Of a stretch of 64,000 nucleotides of DNA, positions 21,942 to 31,582 are shown one piece after another (within the stretch, counting starts at the first letter, position 1; each line of letters begins with the position of its first letter). The notes below the pieces were generated by a model. It made no database searches and had not been told where the DNA came from. It worked only from the letters and a program-made list of their open reading frames with translations. The position numbers were made by a program, and so were the translations under genes. This DNA comes from Brachymonas denitrificans. Its GTDB lineage: Bacteria; Pseudomonadota; Gammaproteobacteria; Burkholderiales; Burkholderiaceae_C. The DNA is taken from NCBI RefSeq assembly GCF_907163135.1, contig NZ_CAJQUA010000001.1, positions 2,123,001 to 2,187,000 on the forward strand. The letters run 5' to 3'.

Positions 21942-21969
21942 GAAAAGTTTGCATAATCAGCCAACCGTG

Positions 21970-22989
21970 ATGCAAAACTCCCTTCCCACCATCCCCATCG
22001 ATTTCGTGCGCGATCTGCTGCAAGGCGCGGCACTGGATTCGCACCAGCAGGCGGCCTGTGTGCTGCGTGCCGGCATTGCGCCGGCCTTGCTGCAACAGGC
22101 GGGCGCCCGCGTGACCAACCAACAGTTCGCCGGCCTGTATCGCCTGCTGGCCCAGCAGTGCGATGACGAAACCCCCGGCATGTTTGCGCGCCCGCTGCGC
22201 GGCGGTACGCTCAAGTTCCTGTGCCTGAGCCTGATCGGTTCACCCAGCCTGGTGACGGCGCTGTACCGGTTCACGCAATACTTCCGGCTGCTGCTGGATG
22301 ACCTGCTTTTCGTGCTGCGTACGCAGGGCTCGCGTGTTCAGGTGGCACTGGTGCCGCGCACGGAGGCGGTGCGGCAGAACACCTTTGCGCAGAAGATGAT
22401 GCTCAAGCTGGTGCACGGGGTGGCGTCCTGGCTGGCGGGGCACAAGATCCCGCTGGCGCAGGTCGATTTCACCCACGCGCGGCCGGAACAGGGATCGGAG
22501 TATGTCTTTCTCTATCCGGGGCCGCAGCGCTTCGAGCAGCCGGAGATGGCACTCTGGTTCGATCTGGAGCAGTTGCAGACGCCGATCCGGCAGGGGCAGC
22601 AATCGGTGTCCGCGTTTCTGGCGCGCGCTCCGGCGGACTGGATGTTCGTCTCCTTTGCCGAGCGCATCGTGAGCCACCGCGTGCGCGAGCATCTGCAGCA
22701 GCGGCTGGAGCAGCCCGTCACCATCGCTGCAGTGGCGGATGCGCTGCACTTTTCCGTACGCACGCTGGCGCGCAAGCTGCAGGCGGAAGGCACCAGCTTC
22801 CAGGCAGTCAAGGATGAGTTGCGGCGCGACGTGGCGATCCAGCTGCTGACGCAAAGCCGGCTGGCGGTGGCGCAGATCGGGCAGCGCGTGGGATTCGAGG
22901 ATGCGACCTGCTTTCAGCGGGCGTTCCGGCAGTGGACGGGGAGTGCGCCGGGGGCGTATCGGCGGCGGCCGGCTCAGGCATCCAGGTAA
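21970..22989 (+). CDS. AraC-family transcriptional regulator
   Basis: The 339-residue regulator has an N-terminal ligand-binding/dimerisation domain of the PF12625 type (about 10-200, with TLKFLCLSLIGSPSLVTAL) and a C-terminal AraC helix-turn-helix pair (about 235-335). The latter includes VADALHFSVRTLARKLQAEG and IGQRVGFEDATCFQRAFRQW. The ATG at 21970 is preferred to a TTG at 21949 because the family domain starts soon after and no clear ribosome site favours the TTG. The divergent acyl-CoA dehydrogenase-thiolase-ligase operon is its probable target, with a fatty or aliphatic acid derivative as possible inducer. Confidence 0.9.
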   Translation: MQNSLPTIPIDFVRDLLQGAALDSHQQAACVLRAGIAPALLQQAGARVTNQQFAGLYRLLAQQCDDETPGMFARPLRGGTLKFLCLSLIGSPSLVTALYRFTQYFRLLLDDLLFVLRTQGSRVQVALVPRTEAVRQNTFAQKMMLKLVHGVASWLAGHKIPLAQVDFTHARPEQGSEYVFLYPGPQRFEQPEMALWFDLEQLQTPIRQGQQSVSAFLARAPADWMFVSFAERIVSHRVREHLQQRLEQPVTIAAVADALHFSVRTLARKLQAEGTSFQAVKDELRRDVAIQLLTQSRLAVAQIGQRVGFEDATCFQRAFRQWTGSAPGAYRRRPAQASR

Positions 22990-23072
22990 ACTCCCATCGC
23001 GAGCAGTCGGGGCTCGACATGGCGTCGCGGACGGCTGCGACCCATACGTATTACGATCAACGGAGGCCAACA

Positions 23073-23906
23073 ATGGAATGGACGCGCGAAGAGATAGAGG
23101 CCATTGTTGCTGATTACCTTCACATGCTGACGCTCGAATTGAGCGGCCAGGCATACAGCAAGGCGGATCACAGAAGACGGCTCTTGCCTTTGCTCAATAA
23201 CCGTTCAGAAGCGTCCATCGAGTTCAAGCATGGAAATATCAGTGCGGTTCTGGCAAAACTGGGCATTCCCGGCATCCGGGGATATCTGGCTCGGGCGAAC
23301 TATCAGAAACTCCTGGCCGAAGTCGTCGAAGAGCGGTTCAGGAAATTGAGCCCGGTGGATGCCGCGGCCTCGGCCGCAGTGCAGTTGCCCGCCACCGCGC
23401 CTTCGCATGTGGATTTTTCCAAGGTGCTGGCTGTAGCCCCGAAGGTGTCGCGTCGTGCACAGGAAACGGAGGAGTATTTCGCCTCCGAAGGCGTCAAGAG
23501 AGACTATCTTGCACAGGAGAGCCGCAATGCCTCGCTTGGCCTGGCCGGAGAACAGTTCGTTCTCGAATTTGAACACTGGAGATTGATTCGTTCTGGAGCC
23601 CCTCGACTTGCGGACAAAGTCGAACATGTTTCCGTGAACAAGGGCGACGGCCTGGGCTACGACATACTATCCTTCGACGAGAGCGGACGCGAGCGATTCA
23701 TTGAAGTCAAGACCACGACCTTCAACAAGGAAACGCCTTTTTTTGTGTCACGCGGCGAGCTTGGTTTCTCGAAAGCGTTCAGCGACCAGTTTCATCTGTA
23801 CCGGCTCTTCGAATTTCGCGCATCCCCGAAACTATTCGAGCTGCCCGGTGCACTGAATGACCACTGCATACTCGACCCAGTGACCTACCAGGCGAGTTTT
23901 TCCTGA
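23073..23906 (+). CDS. DUF3883 protein with a PD-(D/E)XK nuclease-like core
   Basis: The 277-residue protein is not part of any recognisable operon. The N-terminal 95 residues (MEWTREEIEAIVADYLHML, GIRGYLARANYQKLLAEVVE) look like a small helical domain. The C-terminal part matches DUF3883: GLAGEQFVLEFE (Glu161), GLGYDILSFD (Asp197) and ERFIEVKTTT (Glu211, Lys213). That E...D...ExK set is the arrangement of PD-(D/E)XK restriction-type nucleases, so DNA or RNA cleavage is possible but unproven. A strong CGGAGG ribosome site precedes the ATG. Base composition is clearly less GC-rich than the neighbours, suggesting recent acquisition. DUF3883 domains often occur in restriction or other defence proteins. 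Confidence 0.75.
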   Translation: MEWTREEIEAIVADYLHMLTLELSGQAYSKADHRRRLLPLLNNRSEASIEFKHGNISAVLAKLGIPGIRGYLARANYQKLLAEVVEERFRKLSPVDAAASAAVQLPATAPSHVDFSKVLAVAPKVSRRAQETEEYFASEGVKRDYLAQESRNASLGLAGEQFVLEFEHWRLIRSGAPRLADKVEHVSVNKGDGLGYDILSFDESGRERFIEVKTTTFNKETPFFVSRGELGFSKAFSDQFHLYRLFEFRASPKLFELPGALNDHCILDPVTYQASFS

Positions 23907-25659: not shown

Positions 25660-27309
25660 ATGGAAACGGATTTTGACTACATCGTGGTCGGCGGCGGCTC
25701 GGCCGGTTCGGTGCTGGCCGGGCGCCTGAGCGAGCACGCCGGCACCCGCGTCTGCCTGCTTGAAGCCGGTGGCGGCGGCAGCGGTCCGGCGGTGAACATC
25801 CCTTGCGGCGCCGTCACCATGCTGCCCACGCGCTATAACAACTGGGCCTTCGAGAGTGTGCCCCAACCCGGCCTGAACGGCCGCCGTGCCTACCAGCCGC
25901 GCGGCAAGTGCCTGGGCGGCTCCTCGGCGATCAACGCGATGATCTACATCCGCGGCCACCGCCACGATTACGACCACTGGGCTGCACTCGGCAACGCCGG
26001 CTGGTCGTATGACGATGTGCTGCCCTATTTCATCCTCAGCGAAAACAACGAGCGCTACCGTGACCGCTGGCACGGCAACAGCGGGCCGCTGCACGTGAGC
26101 GATCTGCGCAGCGACAGCCCGTTCCATGCACGCTACCTCGAAGCGGCGCGGCAGGCCGGACTGCCGCTGGCGGGCGACTTCAACGGCGCCGAGCAGGAAG
26201 GTGTGGGCCTGTACCAGGTCACGCAGAAGGACGGCGAACGCTGGAGCGCGGCGCGTGCCTACCTGCTGCCGCATATCGGACAGCGCGCCAACCTCGCCGT
26301 GCACACGCGGGCAGCGGTGCAGCGCATCGTGTTCGAGGGCCGGCGCGCCGTGGGAGTGGACGTGCTGCTGCAGGGCCAGCGCCACCGGCTGCACGCCCGA
26401 CGCGAGGTGCTGCTGAGCGCAGGCGCCCTGCAATCCCCCCAACTGCTGATGCTGTCCGGCGTAGGCGATGGCGCGCTGCTGCAGCAGCATGGCATCGCCA
26501 GCGTGCACCACCTGCCCGGCGTCGGCCGCAATCTGCAGGACCACCTGGACTTCACCTTCGGCTACAACGTGCGCGGCGTGGACAGCTTCGGGTTTTCTTC
26601 GCGTGGCAGCTGGCGCATGCTGCGCGAGTTGCTGCAATTCCGCCGGGCGCGGCGCGGCATGCTCACCACCAACTTTGCCGAAGGCGGCGGTTTTCTCAAG
26701 TCGCGGCCGGAACTGCCCATCCCCGACCTGCAACTGCATTTCGTCGTTGCGCTGGTCGACAGCCATGCGCGCAAGCTGCACTGGGGGCACGGCCTGTCCT
26801 GCCACGTCTGCCTGCTGCGGCCGCAGAGCCGCGGCACCGTCGGCCTGCAGGGTGCCGATCCTGCCTTGCCGCCACGCATCGACCCGGCCTATCTCTCGCA
26901 TCCGCAAGACCTCGAAGACATGGTGGCCGGCTACCGCATCACCCAGCGGCTGATGCAGGCCCCGGCGCTGGCCGAGCTCTACACGCGCGACATGTTCACC
27001 GCCGACGTGCGCGACGACGAAGGCATCCGCGCCATCATCCGCCAGCGCGCGGAAACCATCTACCATCCGGTCGGCACCTGCCGCATGGGCACCGACGCCG
27101 ACGCCGTGGTCGACGCCGAATTGCGCGTGCACGGCCTGCAGGGTCTGCGCGTGGTCGATGCCTCCATCATGCCTACCCTGATCGGCGGCAATACCAACGC
27201 CCCGACCATCATGATTGCCGAAAAGGCTGTGGACCTGATCCGGGGACAGTCGCGGATCCGGCCGGGCGTCCCACACCACGGAGAGAGCGTCCATGCCGGC
27301 ACCCACTGA
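25660..27309 (+). CDS. GMC-family FAD-dependent alcohol oxidoreductase (choline dehydrogenase / AlkJ-like)
   Basis: The 549-residue flavoenzyme has the FAD-binding motif VVGGGSAGSVLAGRLSE (GGGSAG at 11-16), GGSSAINAMIYIRGH (GMC signature 1), a signature-2 region around SAGALQSPQLLMLSG, and the catalytic pair His469 in YHPVGTCRMG and Asn513 in GGNTNAPTIM. The family oxidises primary or secondary alcohols and passes electrons to quinones or oxygen. Choline dehydrogenase and AlkJ are the nearest well-known types, but the substrate here is unknown. The start at 25660 has CGGGAG upstream. The gene end overlaps the next gene by 17 bases, so it forms an operon with the monooxygenase-hydrolase fusion and the dehydrogenase. 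Oxidation of an alcohol to the ketone used by the next enzyme is inferred. Confidence 0.9.
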   Translation: METDFDYIVVGGGSAGSVLAGRLSEHAGTRVCLLEAGGGGSGPAVNIPCGAVTMLPTRYNNWAFESVPQPGLNGRRAYQPRGKCLGGSSAINAMIYIRGHRHDYDHWAALGNAGWSYDDVLPYFILSENNERYRDRWHGNSGPLHVSDLRSDSPFHARYLEAARQAGLPLAGDFNGAEQEGVGLYQVTQKDGERWSAARAYLLPHIGQRANLAVHTRAAVQRIVFEGRRAVGVDVLLQGQRHRLHARREVLLSAGALQSPQLLMLSGVGDGALLQQHGIASVHHLPGVGRNLQDHLDFTFGYNVRGVDSFGFSSRGSWRMLRELLQFRRARRGMLTTNFAEGGGFLKSRPELPIPDLQLHFVVALVDSHARKLHWGHGLSCHVCLLRPQSRGTVGLQGADPALPPRIDPAYLSHPQDLEDMVAGYRITQRLMQAPALAELYTRDMFTADVRDDEGIRAIIRQRAETIYHPVGTCRMGTDADAVVDAELRVHGLQGLRVVDASIMPTLIGGNTNAPTIMIAEKAVDLIRGQSRIRPGVPHHGESVHAGTH

Positions 27310-29968
27310 TCCGTCCGGCGCAGCGTCGTCCCGAACGCATGCGGGCCCGACCGCAGAAACCCTCTCCGCGCTCATCATCGGCAGCGGCTTCGGCGGCCTG
27401 GGCATGGCGATCGCGCTGCGCAAGCAGGGCATCAGCGATTTCCTGCTGCTGGAAAAGGCGCACGACGTTGGCGGCGTCTGGCGCGACAACACCTATCCCG
27501 GCGCCGCCTGCGACGTGCCCTCGCACCTGTACTCCTTCTCGTTCGAGCCCAATCCAAACTGGTCGCGCCACTTTGCGCAGCAACCGGAAATCCTCGCCTA
27601 TCTGCAGCACTGCGCCCGCAAGTACCAGGTGCTGCCGCATCTGCGCTTCGGCGCCGAAGTGCGCGAGGCCCGTTTCGACGAGGCTGCACAGCGCTGGCGG
27701 GTCACGCTGCAGAATGGCGAAACCCTGCACAGCAGCCTGCTGATCAGCGCCACCGGCCAGCTCAGCCGGCCGCTCCTGCCCCGGATCGAGGGCATCGACA
27801 CCTTTGGCGGACCGGCCTTCCACTCCGCCCGCTGGAATCACGGTTGCGCGCTGCAGGCCAAGCGCGTGGCCGTGATCGGCACCGGCGCCTCGGCGCTCCA
27901 GTTCGTGCCTGCCATTGCCGGCCAGGTGGCGCAGCTATCGGTATTCCAGCGCTCCCCGGCCTACATCCTGCCGCGCCCGGACCACGCCTACAGCGCCGAC
28001 GCACAGGCCCGCTTCGCTGCCCAGCCCTGGCGCATGCGGCTGCACCGCGCCGGCATCTACCTGCACCATGAAGTCCGCGCCCTGGGCTTCACCCGCTTCC
28101 GCAGCCTGCTGCAGCCCGCCGTGGGCCGCCCTTTCCGGCAACTGCTGCGCGAGCAGGTGCCGGATCCCGCGCTGCGCCGGCAACTCACGCCCGACTACCC
28201 GATCGGCTGCAAGCGCATCCTGCTTTCCAGCGACTACCTCGCCACACTGGCACGCCCCAACGTGGCCCTGGTGTGTACCCCCATCCGCCGCATCGTGCCC
28301 GAAGGCGTGGAAACGGAGGATGGCACGCTCCACCGCGCCGACGTGCTGATCTACGGCACCGGCTTTGCCGCCACCGAATTCCTGGCTCCGATGCGCATCA
28401 CCGGCCGCGGCGGCATCGACCTGAACACGGTCTGGCAGGACGGCGCCAGCGCCTATCTCGGCATGACGGTGCCGGGCTTCCCCAATTTCTTCATGCTCTA
28501 CGGGCCCAACACCAACCTGGGCCACAGCTCCATCGTCTACATGCTGGAAAGCCAGATCGCCCACGTGATGCGCTGCCTGAAGGCGCTGCGCGGCAGTGGC
28601 GCCAGCGCGATCGAGGTCGATGCCGAGCGCTACCACCAGCATGAGCGGCGCGTGCAGCAGGCCCTGCAGCATACGGCCTGGCAGGGCTGCCAGAGCTGGT
28701 ACCTGGATGCACGCGGCCGCAACAGCACCAACTGGCCGGGATTCACCCTGGGCTACCGCTGGCGCACGCGCTGGTCCAGTCTGCAGGCCTACCGCTTCAC
28801 GCAGCCCATTCCCGGCCTGCCGAGCGCCGAGCGCGTGCTGCAGCCGGGCTCACCGCTGGAAGACCTGCATGCCGCCTTCCTGCGCGGCTTTCTGCGCCTG
28901 TGCTTTCGCGGGCTGATCGGCCCGCCGCGCGGGATTGACTTCCAGCGCCGCATCATCGCCCTGCTGGGCCCGCTCACGCCCGGCGTGCGCGGCATCCGGC
29001 GCGAGCGGGCCAGTCTCGGAGGCATCCCCGCCGAGCGTCTGGCACGACGCGATGGCTTCAGCGGTGACCATCCGGTCCCAGTGCATGATGCAACGCAGAA
29101 ACCCGCACCCAGGCACGGGCCGTTCGCCGCAGAGGCAACCCCACACGGCGACAGTCCACCCGGCGCATTGCTCTATCTGCACGGCGGCGCCTTCTGCATC
29201 GGCGGCCCCGACTCGCACCGCAGCATCGGCAGCCGGCTGGCCGTCTATTCCGGCCTGACCACGTGGATGCTGGACTACCGTCTGGCACCCGAGCACCCCT
29301 ACCCCGCAGCACTCGAAGATGCACTTGCCGCCTGGCAGGCCCTGCTGGATCAGGGTCTGCAGGCTCAGCAGATCGTGGTGGCGGGCGACTCCGCCGGCGG
29401 CATGCTGGCGCTGGCCCTGCTGCTGCGTCTGCGCGCGCAAGGCCAGCCCCTGCCCGCCGGCCTGATGCTGCTCTCCCCCGTCACCGATCCGTCGTTTTCC
29501 GGCCCCAGCATGCAGACCCATGCCGCACGTGACCCCATGCTGCATCCCGACTGGCTGCAGCAGGCCGTGCGCTGGTACGCCTGCCCGCCCGAAGCACTCG
29601 ACCACCGCCCGCTCGAAGCCGGCCTGCAGGACTTTCCGCCCCTGCTGCTGCAGGTCGGCGAGGACGAGGTGCTGCTGTCCGATGCGCAGCGGCTGGCCGA
29701 ACTGGCCCGGCGCGACGGCGTGCCCTGCCAGTACGAGCAATACGCCGGACGCTGGCACGTGTTCCAGTTGCAGGCCTTTCAGCTCGCCTCGGCGCGGCAC
29801 GCGCTGCGGCGGCTGGGCGCTTTCGCCCGGGCCGTGGTCCAGCCGTCCGCCAACCAGCCGTCTGCGCCACCTCCCGCTGCCGCAGATTCCCATGACCGCC
29901 CTGATGGAGCTCCCCATGCCAGCGTCCCGCCACCCTGCACAGCACCCGGTCCCGCTCCGTCACCATGA
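27293..29968 (+). CDS. Fusion of a Baeyer-Villiger-type flavin monooxygenase and an alpha/beta hydrolase
   Basis: One 891-residue chain carries two enzymes. Residues about 24-520 form a class-B flavin monooxygenase: FAD motif GSGFGG (30-35), the Baeyer-Villiger fingerprint FGGPAFHSARWN (171-182, FxGxxxHxxxW), and the NADPH motif GTGASA. Residues about 615-850 form an HSL-type hydrolase: oxyanion motif HGGAF (630-634), nucleophile Ser700 in GDSAGG, probable Asp791 in GEDEVLL and His822 in RWHVF. A linker of about 90 residues joins them. The expected chemistry is ketone to ester, then ester to acid plus alcohol, without release of the ester. In actinobacteria similar genes stand side by side (mymA-lipR and a short-chain dehydrogenase), and Gordonia acmA-acmB pairs a monooxygenase with an esterase. 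The frame is continuous, and no shift explains the join. Substrate unknown. Confidence 0.88.
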   Translation: MPAPTDPSGAASSRTHAGPTAETLSALIIGSGFGGLGMAIALRKQGISDFLLLEKAHDVGGVWRDNTYPGAACDVPSHLYSFSFEPNPNWSRHFAQQPEILAYLQHCARKYQVLPHLRFGAEVREARFDEAAQRWRVTLQNGETLHSSLLISATGQLSRPLLPRIEGIDTFGGPAFHSARWNHGCALQAKRVAVIGTGASALQFVPAIAGQVAQLSVFQRSPAYILPRPDHAYSADAQARFAAQPWRMRLHRAGIYLHHEVRALGFTRFRSLLQPAVGRPFRQLLREQVPDPALRRQLTPDYPIGCKRILLSSDYLATLARPNVALVCTPIRRIVPEGVETEDGTLHRADVLIYGTGFAATEFLAPMRITGRGGIDLNTVWQDGASAYLGMTVPGFPNFFMLYGPNTNLGHSSIVYMLESQIAHVMRCLKALRGSGASAIEVDAERYHQHERRVQQALQHTAWQGCQSWYLDARGRNSTNWPGFTLGYRWRTRWSSLQAYRFTQPIPGLPSAERVLQPGSPLEDLHAAFLRGFLRLCFRGLIGPPRGIDFQRRIIALLGPLTPGVRGIRRERASLGGIPAERLARRDGFSGDHPVPVHDATQKPAPRHGPFAAEATPHGDSPPGALLYLHGGAFCIGGPDSHRSIGSRLAVYSGLTTWMLDYRLAPEHPYPAALEDALAAWQALLDQGLQAQQIVVAGDSAGGMLALALLLRLRAQGQPLPAGLMLLSPVTDPSFSGPSMQTHAARDPMLHPDWLQQAVRWYACPPEALDHRPLEAGLQDFPPLLLQVGEDEVLLSDAQRLAELARRDGVPCQYEQYAGRWHVFQLQAFQLASARHALRRLGAFARAVVQPSANQPSAPPPAAADSHDRPDGAPHASVPPPCTAPGPAPSP

Positions 29969-30014
29969 CGCCCAGTCCGGTGCCTCCACACCCAAGCCCC
30001 ATCCGGAGCCGTCC

Positions 30015-30800
30015 ATGCCGCCATCGCCAGCCACCCGCCCCTGCCTGTTCATCTCGGGCGCCGCCGCCGGCATCGGTCGCGCCACCACGCGCCTGTTCGC
30101 TGCCCGCGGCTGGTTCGTCGGCATGGGCGATATCGACGAAGCCGGCATGGCCGAACTGGTAACCGAACTCGGCGCCGACAAGGCCATGGCGCTGCCGCTG
30201 GACGTGCGCAGCCCCGACGACTGGCATGCCGCGCTAGCCGCCTTCCACGCCCGCACCGGCCGGCTCGACCTGCTGGTCAACAACGCCGGCATCCTGATCT
30301 CCGGCCCGCTGCAGGACAACACCCTGAGCCGGCACAACGCGCAGATCGACATCAACGTCAAGGGCGTGCTGTATGGCTGCCATGCCGGCTTTGCCTATCT
30401 GGCCTCCACGCCGCGCGCGCAAGTCATCAACCTGGCTTCCAGCGCCGCCTTCTACGGCCAGGCCTCGCTCGCCAACTATTCCGCCACCAAGTTCTACGTG
30501 CGTGGCCTGACCGAGGCGCTCAACATCGAATGGCAGGACCACGACATCCGCGTGCGCGACATCATGCCGCTGTTCGTGCGCACCGCCATGGTCGACGACA
30601 TGAACGCGCAAAGCATCCGCCGCCTCGGCGTGCACCTGACGCCTGAGGACGTCGCCGCCGTGATCTGGAAAGCCGCGCAGCACCCCGGCTGGGGCAAGGT
30701 GCACTGGCCGGTCGGCGCCCAGGCCTCGCTGCTGTACAAGCTGACCGCAATCACGCCGGACTGGCTGAACCGGCTGGTGGCGCGGCGTATTGCGGTATGA
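30015..30800 (+). CDS. Short-chain dehydrogenase/reductase
   Basis: The 261-residue NAD(P)-dependent oxidoreductase has the cofactor motif SGAAAGIG (14-21), the structural NNAG, and the catalytic Ser-Tyr-Lys set in LASSAAFYGQASLANYSATK. The TGxxxGIG motif is written GAAAGIG, a common variant. The start at 30015 is preferred because GGAG sits seven bases upstream and the Rossmann fold starts right after; the frame is open further upstream but reads as the end of the fusion gene in another phase. Its place behind the GMC oxidoreductase and monooxygenase-hydrolase suggests it oxidises an alcohol to the ketone substrate, or reduces a product. This is inference from neighbours. Confidence 0.88.
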   Translation: MPPSPATRPCLFISGAAAGIGRATTRLFAARGWFVGMGDIDEAGMAELVTELGADKAMALPLDVRSPDDWHAALAAFHARTGRLDLLVNNAGILISGPLQDNTLSRHNAQIDINVKGVLYGCHAGFAYLASTPRAQVINLASSAAFYGQASLANYSATKFYVRGLTEALNIEWQDHDIRVRDIMPLFVRTAMVDDMNAQSIRRLGVHLTPEDVAAVIWKAAQHPGWGKVHWPVGAQASLLYKLTAITPDWLNRLVARRIAV

Positions 30801-30907: not shown

Positions 30908-31582
30908 ATGATGCAGTCCCAGCTCCCCTCCAGCCCCGCCAGCGAGCGCAACAAGCAGCCCATTCTCGAAGTGCTGCACAGCTGGCTCGGCCCCACCGGC
31001 CAGGCGCTCGAAATTGCCAGCGGCACCGGCCAGCACATCGTGCACTTCGCGCAGTCCCTGCCCGGCTGGCACTGGCAGCCCAGCGATCTCGACAACTCGC
31101 TGTTCGAAGCCATCCGCCAGCGCAGCGCGCAGGCCGGCCTGGACCGCATCTTTCCGCCCGTGCTGCTCGACGTCCGCGCCCCGCACTGGGAGCTGCCCGG
31201 CCCGGTTGCCCCCGTGGAGGCCGATCCGCAGGCGGATCCGGATACCCCTGCAGTGCCGCAGTTCGACCTGATCTACTGCGCCAACATGCTGCACATCGCC
31301 CCCTGGGAGTGCTGTGCCGGCCTGATGCAGGGCGCAGCCCGCCACCTCGCACAGGACGGCCTGCTCGTCACCTACGGCCCCTATCTGGAAGATGCCATCC
31401 CCACCGCCCCGAGCAATCTGGCCTTCGATGCCGACCTGCGCCGGCGCGATCCCGACTGGGGCATCCGCCAGCTGGCCGATGTGGCGCGGGAATCCGAAGC
31501 CGCCGGCCTGCAGCTGCAGCAGCGCGTGACCATGCCGGCCAACAATCTGCTGCTGGCGTTTGCCAGACAGGCACCGGGCTGA
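30908..31582 (+). CDS. DUF938-family SAM-dependent methyltransferase-like protein
   Basis: The 224-residue protein matches the DUF938 (PF06080) family: SERNKQPILEVL at the N-terminus, the SAM motif I LEIASGTGQHIVHFA, QPSDLD (acidic loop) and NMLHIAPWE. Targets of this family are not established. A short insert rich in Pro, Glu and Asp (around residues 100-118) is unusual but in frame. It lies 107 bases after the dehydrogenase and before a strong terminator, so it could be read with that cluster or alone. Confidence 0.82.
   Translation: MMQSQLPSSPASERNKQPILEVLHSWLGPTGQALEIASGTGQHIVHFAQSLPGWHWQPSDLDNSLFEAIRQRSAQAGLDRIFPPVLLDVRAPHWELPGPVAPVEADPQADPDTPAVPQFDLIYCANMLHIAPWECCAGLMQGAARHLAQDGLLVTYGPYLEDAIPTAPSNLAFDADLRRRDPDWGIRQLADVARESEAAGLQLQQRVTMPANNLLLAFARQAPG

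Follow-up and report, generated by a model that had tools for sequence, protein, structure and literature searches.

Do a Baeyer-Villiger monooxygenase (BVMO) and an esterase that are read in one frame in Brachymonas denitrificans truly form a single protein, and does their union reflect a shared metabolic task? The question is raised by one gene in a stretch of 64,000 nucleotides (assembly GCF_907163135.1, contig NZ_CAJQUA010000001.1, positions 2,123,001 to 2,187,000 of the forward strand), the whole of which is called the window in this paper. According to the evidence presented below, the fusion is real, conserved and repeatedly evolved, and its general function appears to be well supported. 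The 891-residue protein is probably a bifunctional enzyme for the oxidative cleavage of ketones. The gene and its parts are as follows (confidence of the structure model is given as the predicted local distance difference test, pLDDT, and the predicted template modelling score, pTM).

27293-29968, forward strand: BVMO-esterase fusion, 891 amino acids, ATG start; single open reading frame (ORF) with Pfam domains in both halves; model mean pLDDT 81.7, pTM 0.83.
27350-28807, forward strand: BVMO domain, residues about 20-505; aligned by the solved BVMOs 9orn, 4c77 and 5m0z with Z of about 36; best Foldseek match 7v8o.
28808-28858, forward strand: linker, residues about 506-522, predicted to be ordered (block pLDDT 88-92), from the AlphaFold2 model and fold alignments.
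28859-29842, forward strand: esterase domain of the hormone-sensitive lipase (HSL) family with cap, residues about 523-850, with Ser700, Glu792 and His822; fold match to EstD11 (7at0) and invariant residues.
29051-29146, forward strand: about 32 extra residues (about 587-618) inserted into the esterase ahead of the LYLHGG strand, from alignment rows and pLDDT.

The ORF is open along its whole length, and Pfam assigns Pyr_redox_3 (residues 27-222) and FMO-like (28-235) domains to the N half and Abhydrolase_3 (626-825) to the C half. One full-length copy of the fusion exists in the 2.75-Mb genome of the same organism, where the sole further match is a hydrolase-only place with 31% identity. Both sets of active-site residues are kept in all 58 aligned full fusion rows (an alignment made without L055, L065 and L037, three loci cut by contig ends). 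The invariant positions are G30, G32, W63, D74, H177, W181, G196 and R308 in the first half, and H630-G632, S700, E792 and H822 in the second. Thus the ORF, the Pfam domains, the motif positions and the complete invariance of these residues bear out the claim of an earlier note on this DNA that a BVMO and an HSL-type hydrolase with intact motifs share one frame.

A search for further monooxygenase-hydrolase fusions returned 61 distinct fusions of the window type, with the window counted in and any genome reached by two routes merged, as well as fusions of other types. The 60 others include one in a same-genus genome with 81% identity. Since independent genomes keep the join, the fusion is not an artefact. 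That a frameshift or a missed stop in the linker, or an error of assembly or sequencing, had created the single frame can therefore be dismissed for practical purposes; nothing in the window speaks for it, although split frames do occur in two related records (L074 and Burkholderia glumae H3). The possibility that the fusion is unique to this genome was likewise rejected by the contig scan, the genome draws and the plasmid records presented below.

The two halves each carry the features of a complete enzyme. The type I BVMO fingerprint, FxGxxxHxxxW, is present as FGGPAFHSARW at residues 171-181, and Rossmann nucleotide motifs are located at 30 (GSGFGG, of the form GxGxxG) and at 196 (GTGASA). 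The second type I BVMO motif has the form [AG]GxWxxxx[FY]P[GM]xxxD and is found here as GGVWRDNTYPGAACD at residues 60-74. A form of the fingerprint with Pro or Asp right after the Trp is described in PMC12388405. Asn182 stands at this place in the window fusion; among 64 rows, which hold the window twice and two copies of a fusion with a BVMO half like cyclohexanone monooxygenase (CHMO), the residue is D in 56, N in 5 and P in 3. Residues 20-505 of the model align with solved BVMOs, including CHMO and phenylacetone monooxygenase (PAMO), over about 470 residues, and the Foldseek match 7v8o has a TM score by target of 0.78.

In the C half, the HSL motifs are seen as HGG at 630-632 (the oxyanion motif), GDSAG at 698-702 with the nucleophile Ser700, and His822. 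EstD11 aligns over the whole fold including the cap, with Z of 42.8, a root-mean-square deviation of 1.6 and 291 of 294 residues aligned. The best NCBIfam match of this half, GESAG_HSLs, scores 217.6 bits against a cut-off of 430, indicating an HSL that belongs to none of those named subfamilies. The catalytic acid is most likely Glu792, because this residue is invariant in the 58 rows and is aligned with Glu in 9izt and in EstD11. Asp791 was considered as the acid and rejected; of 64 rows, no more than 9 carry Asp at 791 (two rows have gaps), and 61 carry Glu at 792.

According to the borders of the fold alignments, at residues 505 and 523, a linker of only about 17 residues connects the two halves. 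In the AlphaFold2 model of the full protein, which was built from 58 fusions, the linker blocks reach the pLDDT values listed above, and for this reason the BVMO and esterase domains may be held in a fixed mutual arrangement. Among 61 rows, the window alone has the esterase insertion of about 32 residues, and its region is predicted to be disordered, with pLDDT below 50 at 593-619. The GC content at third codon positions is 0.65 in the stretch that encodes it, compared to 0.83-0.90 in the other stretches measured.

The distribution of the fusion is patchy across Pseudomonadota. In a scan of genome contigs, the best 80 of 594 stretches were kept, ranked by likeness to the fused query, and 57 of these 80 loci are fused; this proportion is no natural frequency, for which the genome draws are the better guide. 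The genera that carry the fusion in the scan include Burkholderia, Ralstonia, Cupriavidus, Massilia, Pseudomonas, Solimonas, Rhizobium and others. When genomes were drawn evenly, own genome included, the fusion was found in 6 of 299 from the same family, 2 of 274 from the class and 1 of 299 from the phylum. Within the genus it occurs in 2 of 9 genomes, several of the remaining ones being incomplete. Replicons listed as plasmids carry it as well: in 61 such records a single place spans 80% or more of the query, and the 30 matches listed are all from Burkholderia.

The two halves diverged together. Across 59 fusions (the set without L055 and L065), the pairwise distances of the BVMO halves correlate with those of the esterase halves at 0.86, compared to a maximum of 0.24 when the labels were shuffled 1000 times. 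Both trees join the window fusion to the same-genus protein, L005 to L080, and the Sphingomonas and Rhizobiales rows to one another; both also bear long-branch warnings for outlying rows, among them a fusion of reverse order. The label 'fused', which here includes the CHMO-like fusion, requires 15 changes on the BVMO tree, and 6 of these changes are forced by strongly supported branches. On the esterase tree it requires 3. The esterase half was lost, or gained, more than once within the clade of window-type fusions, and the trees favour neither a single origin with repeated loss nor repeated gain.

Joining of these two enzymes was not confined to a single order. A reverse fusion, with the esterase followed by the BVMO, is present in G015 (L098 5031-7616) and also in L122-L126. 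It was found in 8 of the 299 same-family genomes, namely G015 and seven others with at least 64% identity over nearly the whole length, and a ninth is cut by a contig end; six of the eight are read as single ORFs. In the trees, the BVMO half of this reverse fusion is placed outside the clade of the window; its esterase half clusters, on long branches, with the unfused esterase of L096. A further arrangement, a CHMO-like BVMO followed by an esterase, occurs in 2 of the 299 genomes (G019 and G317), with the inverse order in G249. Both the reverse fusion and the CHMO-like fusion (L098 and L099) unite the same pair of activities in one chain as the window protein, but either the domain order is opposite or the BVMO half is just 35% identical, and they apparently represent separate joins. 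At least two joins are nearly certain, because one simple join cannot give opposite orders, and at least three are likely. Since the join recurs in dozens of related bacteria and seems to have arisen more than once, the BVMO and esterase steps probably belong together.

Another set of ORFs, of 810-1104 codons (L118, L119 and L120), has an HSL-like half followed by a shorter flavoprotein half that is 30% identical. These are counted apart from the BVMO fusions and are perhaps a further fusion type.

The genes adjoining the fusion in the window bear on the pathway in which it may act.

25660-27309, forward strand: GMC oxidoreductase, 549 amino acids; GMC_oxred_N/C domains and NCBIfam PRK02106.
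30015-30800, forward strand: short-chain dehydrogenase/reductase (SDR) of the PRK08267 family; Pfam, NCBIfam and start choice.

As the earlier note had described, the end of the GMC gene overlaps the first 17 bases of the fusion gene and an SDR gene lies downstream, which ORF positions and Pfam confirm; the best start of the SDR is the ATG at 30015, 46 bases past the fusion stop. The GMC product passes the choline-dehydrogenase-like PRK02106 (607.9 bits against a cut-off of 605), stays under the betA equivalog cut-off (511.5 against 732.1 bits), and has choline dehydrogenase-like and alcohol oxidase chains as its nearest solved relatives. By these likenesses, it is probably an alcohol dehydrogenase or oxidase. 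Neighbours of the fusion were counted where the locus extended at least 2.5 kb (GMC, SDR and AraC) or at least 4 kb (aldehyde dehydrogenase) to either side. A same-strand GMC gene is close by in 30 of 51 window-type fused loci. In contrast, an SDR gene is near the fusion in just 4 of 51, adjoining it also in the same-genus genome and in one same-family genome, and an aldehyde dehydrogenase gene on the same strand within 4.5 kb was found in 10 of 51 (two checked by Pfam). Therefore the setting between two types of alcohol dehydrogenase, to which the earlier note had drawn attention, recurs on its GMC side, but the layout as a whole is not conserved.

A route may be proposed from these components. 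The GMC enzyme, the SDR or both would convert a secondary alcohol into a ketone. With FAD, NADPH and O2, the N half of the fusion would insert an oxygen beside the carbonyl and so turn the ketone into an ester, and the C half, with its putative triad Ser700-Glu792-His822, would split this ester by hydrolysis into alcohol and acid. Alternatively or additionally, the GMC enzyme, encoded by the overlapping gene, may oxidize the released primary alcohol to an aldehyde, and the SDR may serve in cofactor recycling if not in the alcohol-ketone step. Our best guess for the substrate is an aliphatic methyl ketone (2-alkanone). In methyl ketones, BVMOs insert the oxygen on the larger side, so that an alkyl acetate should form and then be split into acetate and a primary alcohol; the GMC enzyme, with an aldehyde dehydrogenase where present, would carry this alcohol on to the acid. 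This differs from the alcohol-ketone-ester-acid route in three genes that was envisaged earlier, in that hydrolysis also frees an alcohol that needs further oxidation. We infer the two activities, the identity of the substrate, the direction in which the neighbouring enzymes work, the hand-over of the ester and any benefit of linkage.

Several observations weigh against this proposal. Both enzyme activities are deduced from sequence and a model. Matches to the BVMO without an esterase, with 45-64% identity, are present in 17 of the 299 genomes drawn from the phylum. Within the clade of window-type fusions, 19 unfused rows are nested among 62 fused ones (the window counted twice), or 19 of 80 rows when the duplicate is removed; therefore the linkage is dispensable. 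In Sphingomonas aquatilis (L074 5905-8468) the halves lie in different, overlapping frames, through either a sequencing error or a real split, and the Burkholderia glumae plasmid record H3 holds the pair as two annotated proteins. Moreover, no likely AlkB was found in the own genome. AlkB belongs to PF00487, and the single match to this family (FA_desaturase) is weakly DesA-like; one P450 is present, and neither it nor the desaturase reaches the cut-off of any NCBIfam family. A crude motif search likewise detected no AlkB-like motif letters in the fetched loci. Since there is no clear AlkB in the own genome, the ketone does not have to derive from alkanes, and it or the alcohol may have an external source.

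If the protein cleaves ketones, a methyl ketone is not the only conceivable substrate. A cyclic, terpenoid or aromatic ketone would yield a lactone or an aryl ester, which the esterase would then open, and this alternative, though rather unlikely, has some indications behind it. Among NCBIfam families, the N half matches neopentalenolactone/pentalenolactone D synthase best, the nearest solved relatives of this half by sequence are cyclohexanone and steroid monooxygenases, and one plasmid neighbour of the fusion is annotated as coniferyl aldehyde dehydrogenase. All such matches are distant, however (221.5 bits against a cut-off of 1100 for the NCBIfam family), and many BVMOs accept both kinds of ketone. 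In addition, the closest stand-alone relatives among the matches listed, with 51-54% identity, include proteins of Acinetobacter and Marinobacter, genera of alkane users in the accessible parts of the literature. It is still less probable that the esterase half acts as a transacylase toward another alcohol or acceptor, or on an unrelated ester. Est8 (6y9k), an esterase described with transacylase activity, is indeed among its closest folds (Z 42.6), but equally close folds are mostly plain esterases, and its constant pairing with a BVMO, whichever half comes first, suggests that it acts on the product of the BVMO.

Whether the ester passes directly between the sites of the ketone-cleaving enzyme is another matter. 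It is an even bet that fusion merely fixes a 1:1 ratio of the two activities and leaves the ester free in solution. Unfused adjoining pairs exist, such as the four neighbouring genes of Sapientia aquatica (L080), in the order BVMO-esterase-SDR-GMC, and the separate BVMO and esterase genes of G489 (L096), which overlap by 17 bases; stand-alone BVMOs branch from within the fused clade; and the joining of overlapping neighbour genes can be neutral. The repeated joining in both orders and the short linker of predicted order suggest more than chance, but neither proves transfer from site to site, and the direct hand-over of the ester that had been suggested earlier finds no support in the present evidence. 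Only tentatively, and with doubt prevailing, can a wider view be put forward: a convergent class of ketone-cleaving BVMO-esterase fusions in Pseudomonadota, joined at least two and probably at least three times and in both orders, in which an ordered interface would hand the ester from the flavin site to the esterase and thereby keep a reversible or inhibitory ester from ever accumulating. The fused, reverse-fused, neighbouring unfused and esterase-free relatives provide ready subjects for testing whether linkage channels. Besides these, L015, L024 and L068 hold a second BVMO, more distant at about 50% identity and accompanied by an adjoining esterase of its own, in addition to the fusion or its esterase-free relative.

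The proposed chemistry has known counterparts. In the mymA-lipR pair of mycobacteria and the acmA-acmB pair of Gordonia, the BVMO gene stands beside an esterase gene and the two encode separate proteins. Closer precedents of the window route are AlmA and the sad cluster. AlmA of Acinetobacter, a flavoprotein monooxygenase of long-chain alkane users, is re-described as a BVMO for 2-ketones (PMC12388405, PMC12449030), converting 2-decanone and 2-dodecanone to octyl and decyl acetate (PMC12388405). By description, it resembles the window half as a flavin monooxygenase with BVMO motifs, but AlmA is a single stand-alone enzyme, whereas the window BVMO is joined to an esterase. In strain NyZ410, the sad cluster encodes SadC, the BVMO SadD and the esterases SadA and SadB, which lead from secondary alcohol through ketone and ester to primary alcohol and acetate (PMC12753306, PMC10045523); the BVMO and esterases of this route thus cleave 2-ketones to a primary alcohol and acetate (PMC12753306). 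As in the window, with its GMC, fusion and SDR genes, alcohol dehydrogenase, BVMO and esterase are encoded together, a likeness of arrangement only. The sad BVMO and its two esterases are separate proteins, whereas the window has one esterase, fused, with a GMC partner. The reaction pair of BVMO and then esterase is known from the work on AlmA and sad (PMC13055320 in addition to the papers cited above), and induction of a BVMO and an esterase on C28 is reported in PMC6304351. Man-made fusions of BVMOs with alcohol or phosphite dehydrogenases link cascade steps physically as the window protein does, but they are engineered, and in place of an esterase they carry a dehydrogenase as a source of NADPH.

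In searches of open-licence literature aimed at a natural BVMO-esterase fusion, partly by title and start of the abstract, no such fusion was named, and no account was found of how widely it is spread or of its recurring in either order. The chemistry is known, and the proteins themselves are in public databases. If the proposed function is correct, nature has several times made a two-step ketone-cleaving biocatalyst that otherwise has to be put together by engineers, and its repeated appearance would place BVMO and esterase in one catabolic step.

Annotation may also gain from this reading. On the Burkholderia glumae plasmid bglu_2p (L110 1-14391), genes for an AraC regulator, a coniferyl aldehyde dehydrogenase, a GMC enzyme and the fusion stand in a row, and the fusion is annotated merely as an alpha/beta hydrolase protein, a name for the hydrolase half only that hides a route of ketone oxidation. 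IS66 genes flank this row at one end, and genes for an exonuclease, an integrase and mercury resistance flank it at the other end. The nearby IS66, integrase and mercury-resistance genes suggest recent movement of the ketone-cleavage genes.

An AraC gene is also present in the window, at a greater distance.

21949-22989, forward strand: AraC-type regulator with Arabinose_bd and HTH_18 domains (Pfam); 3.7 kb upstream, with an opposite-strand gene between.

An opposite-strand AraC gene lies within 3.5 kb of the fusion in 34 of 51 other fused loci, and these regulators are low-scoring relatives of the one at 21949. Because of its distance, the intervening gene and this distant likeness, it is only possible that the window regulator controls the fusion operon. 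Between the AraC gene and the opposite-strand gene, which is trmE/mnmE-like, a NOV_C (PF13020) protein is encoded at 22932-23906, and a different gene takes the equivalent place in the same-genus locus (L014 1536-2591). On the other side of the fusion, a DUF938 methyltransferase-like gene is located at 30908-31582, directly past the SDR gene.

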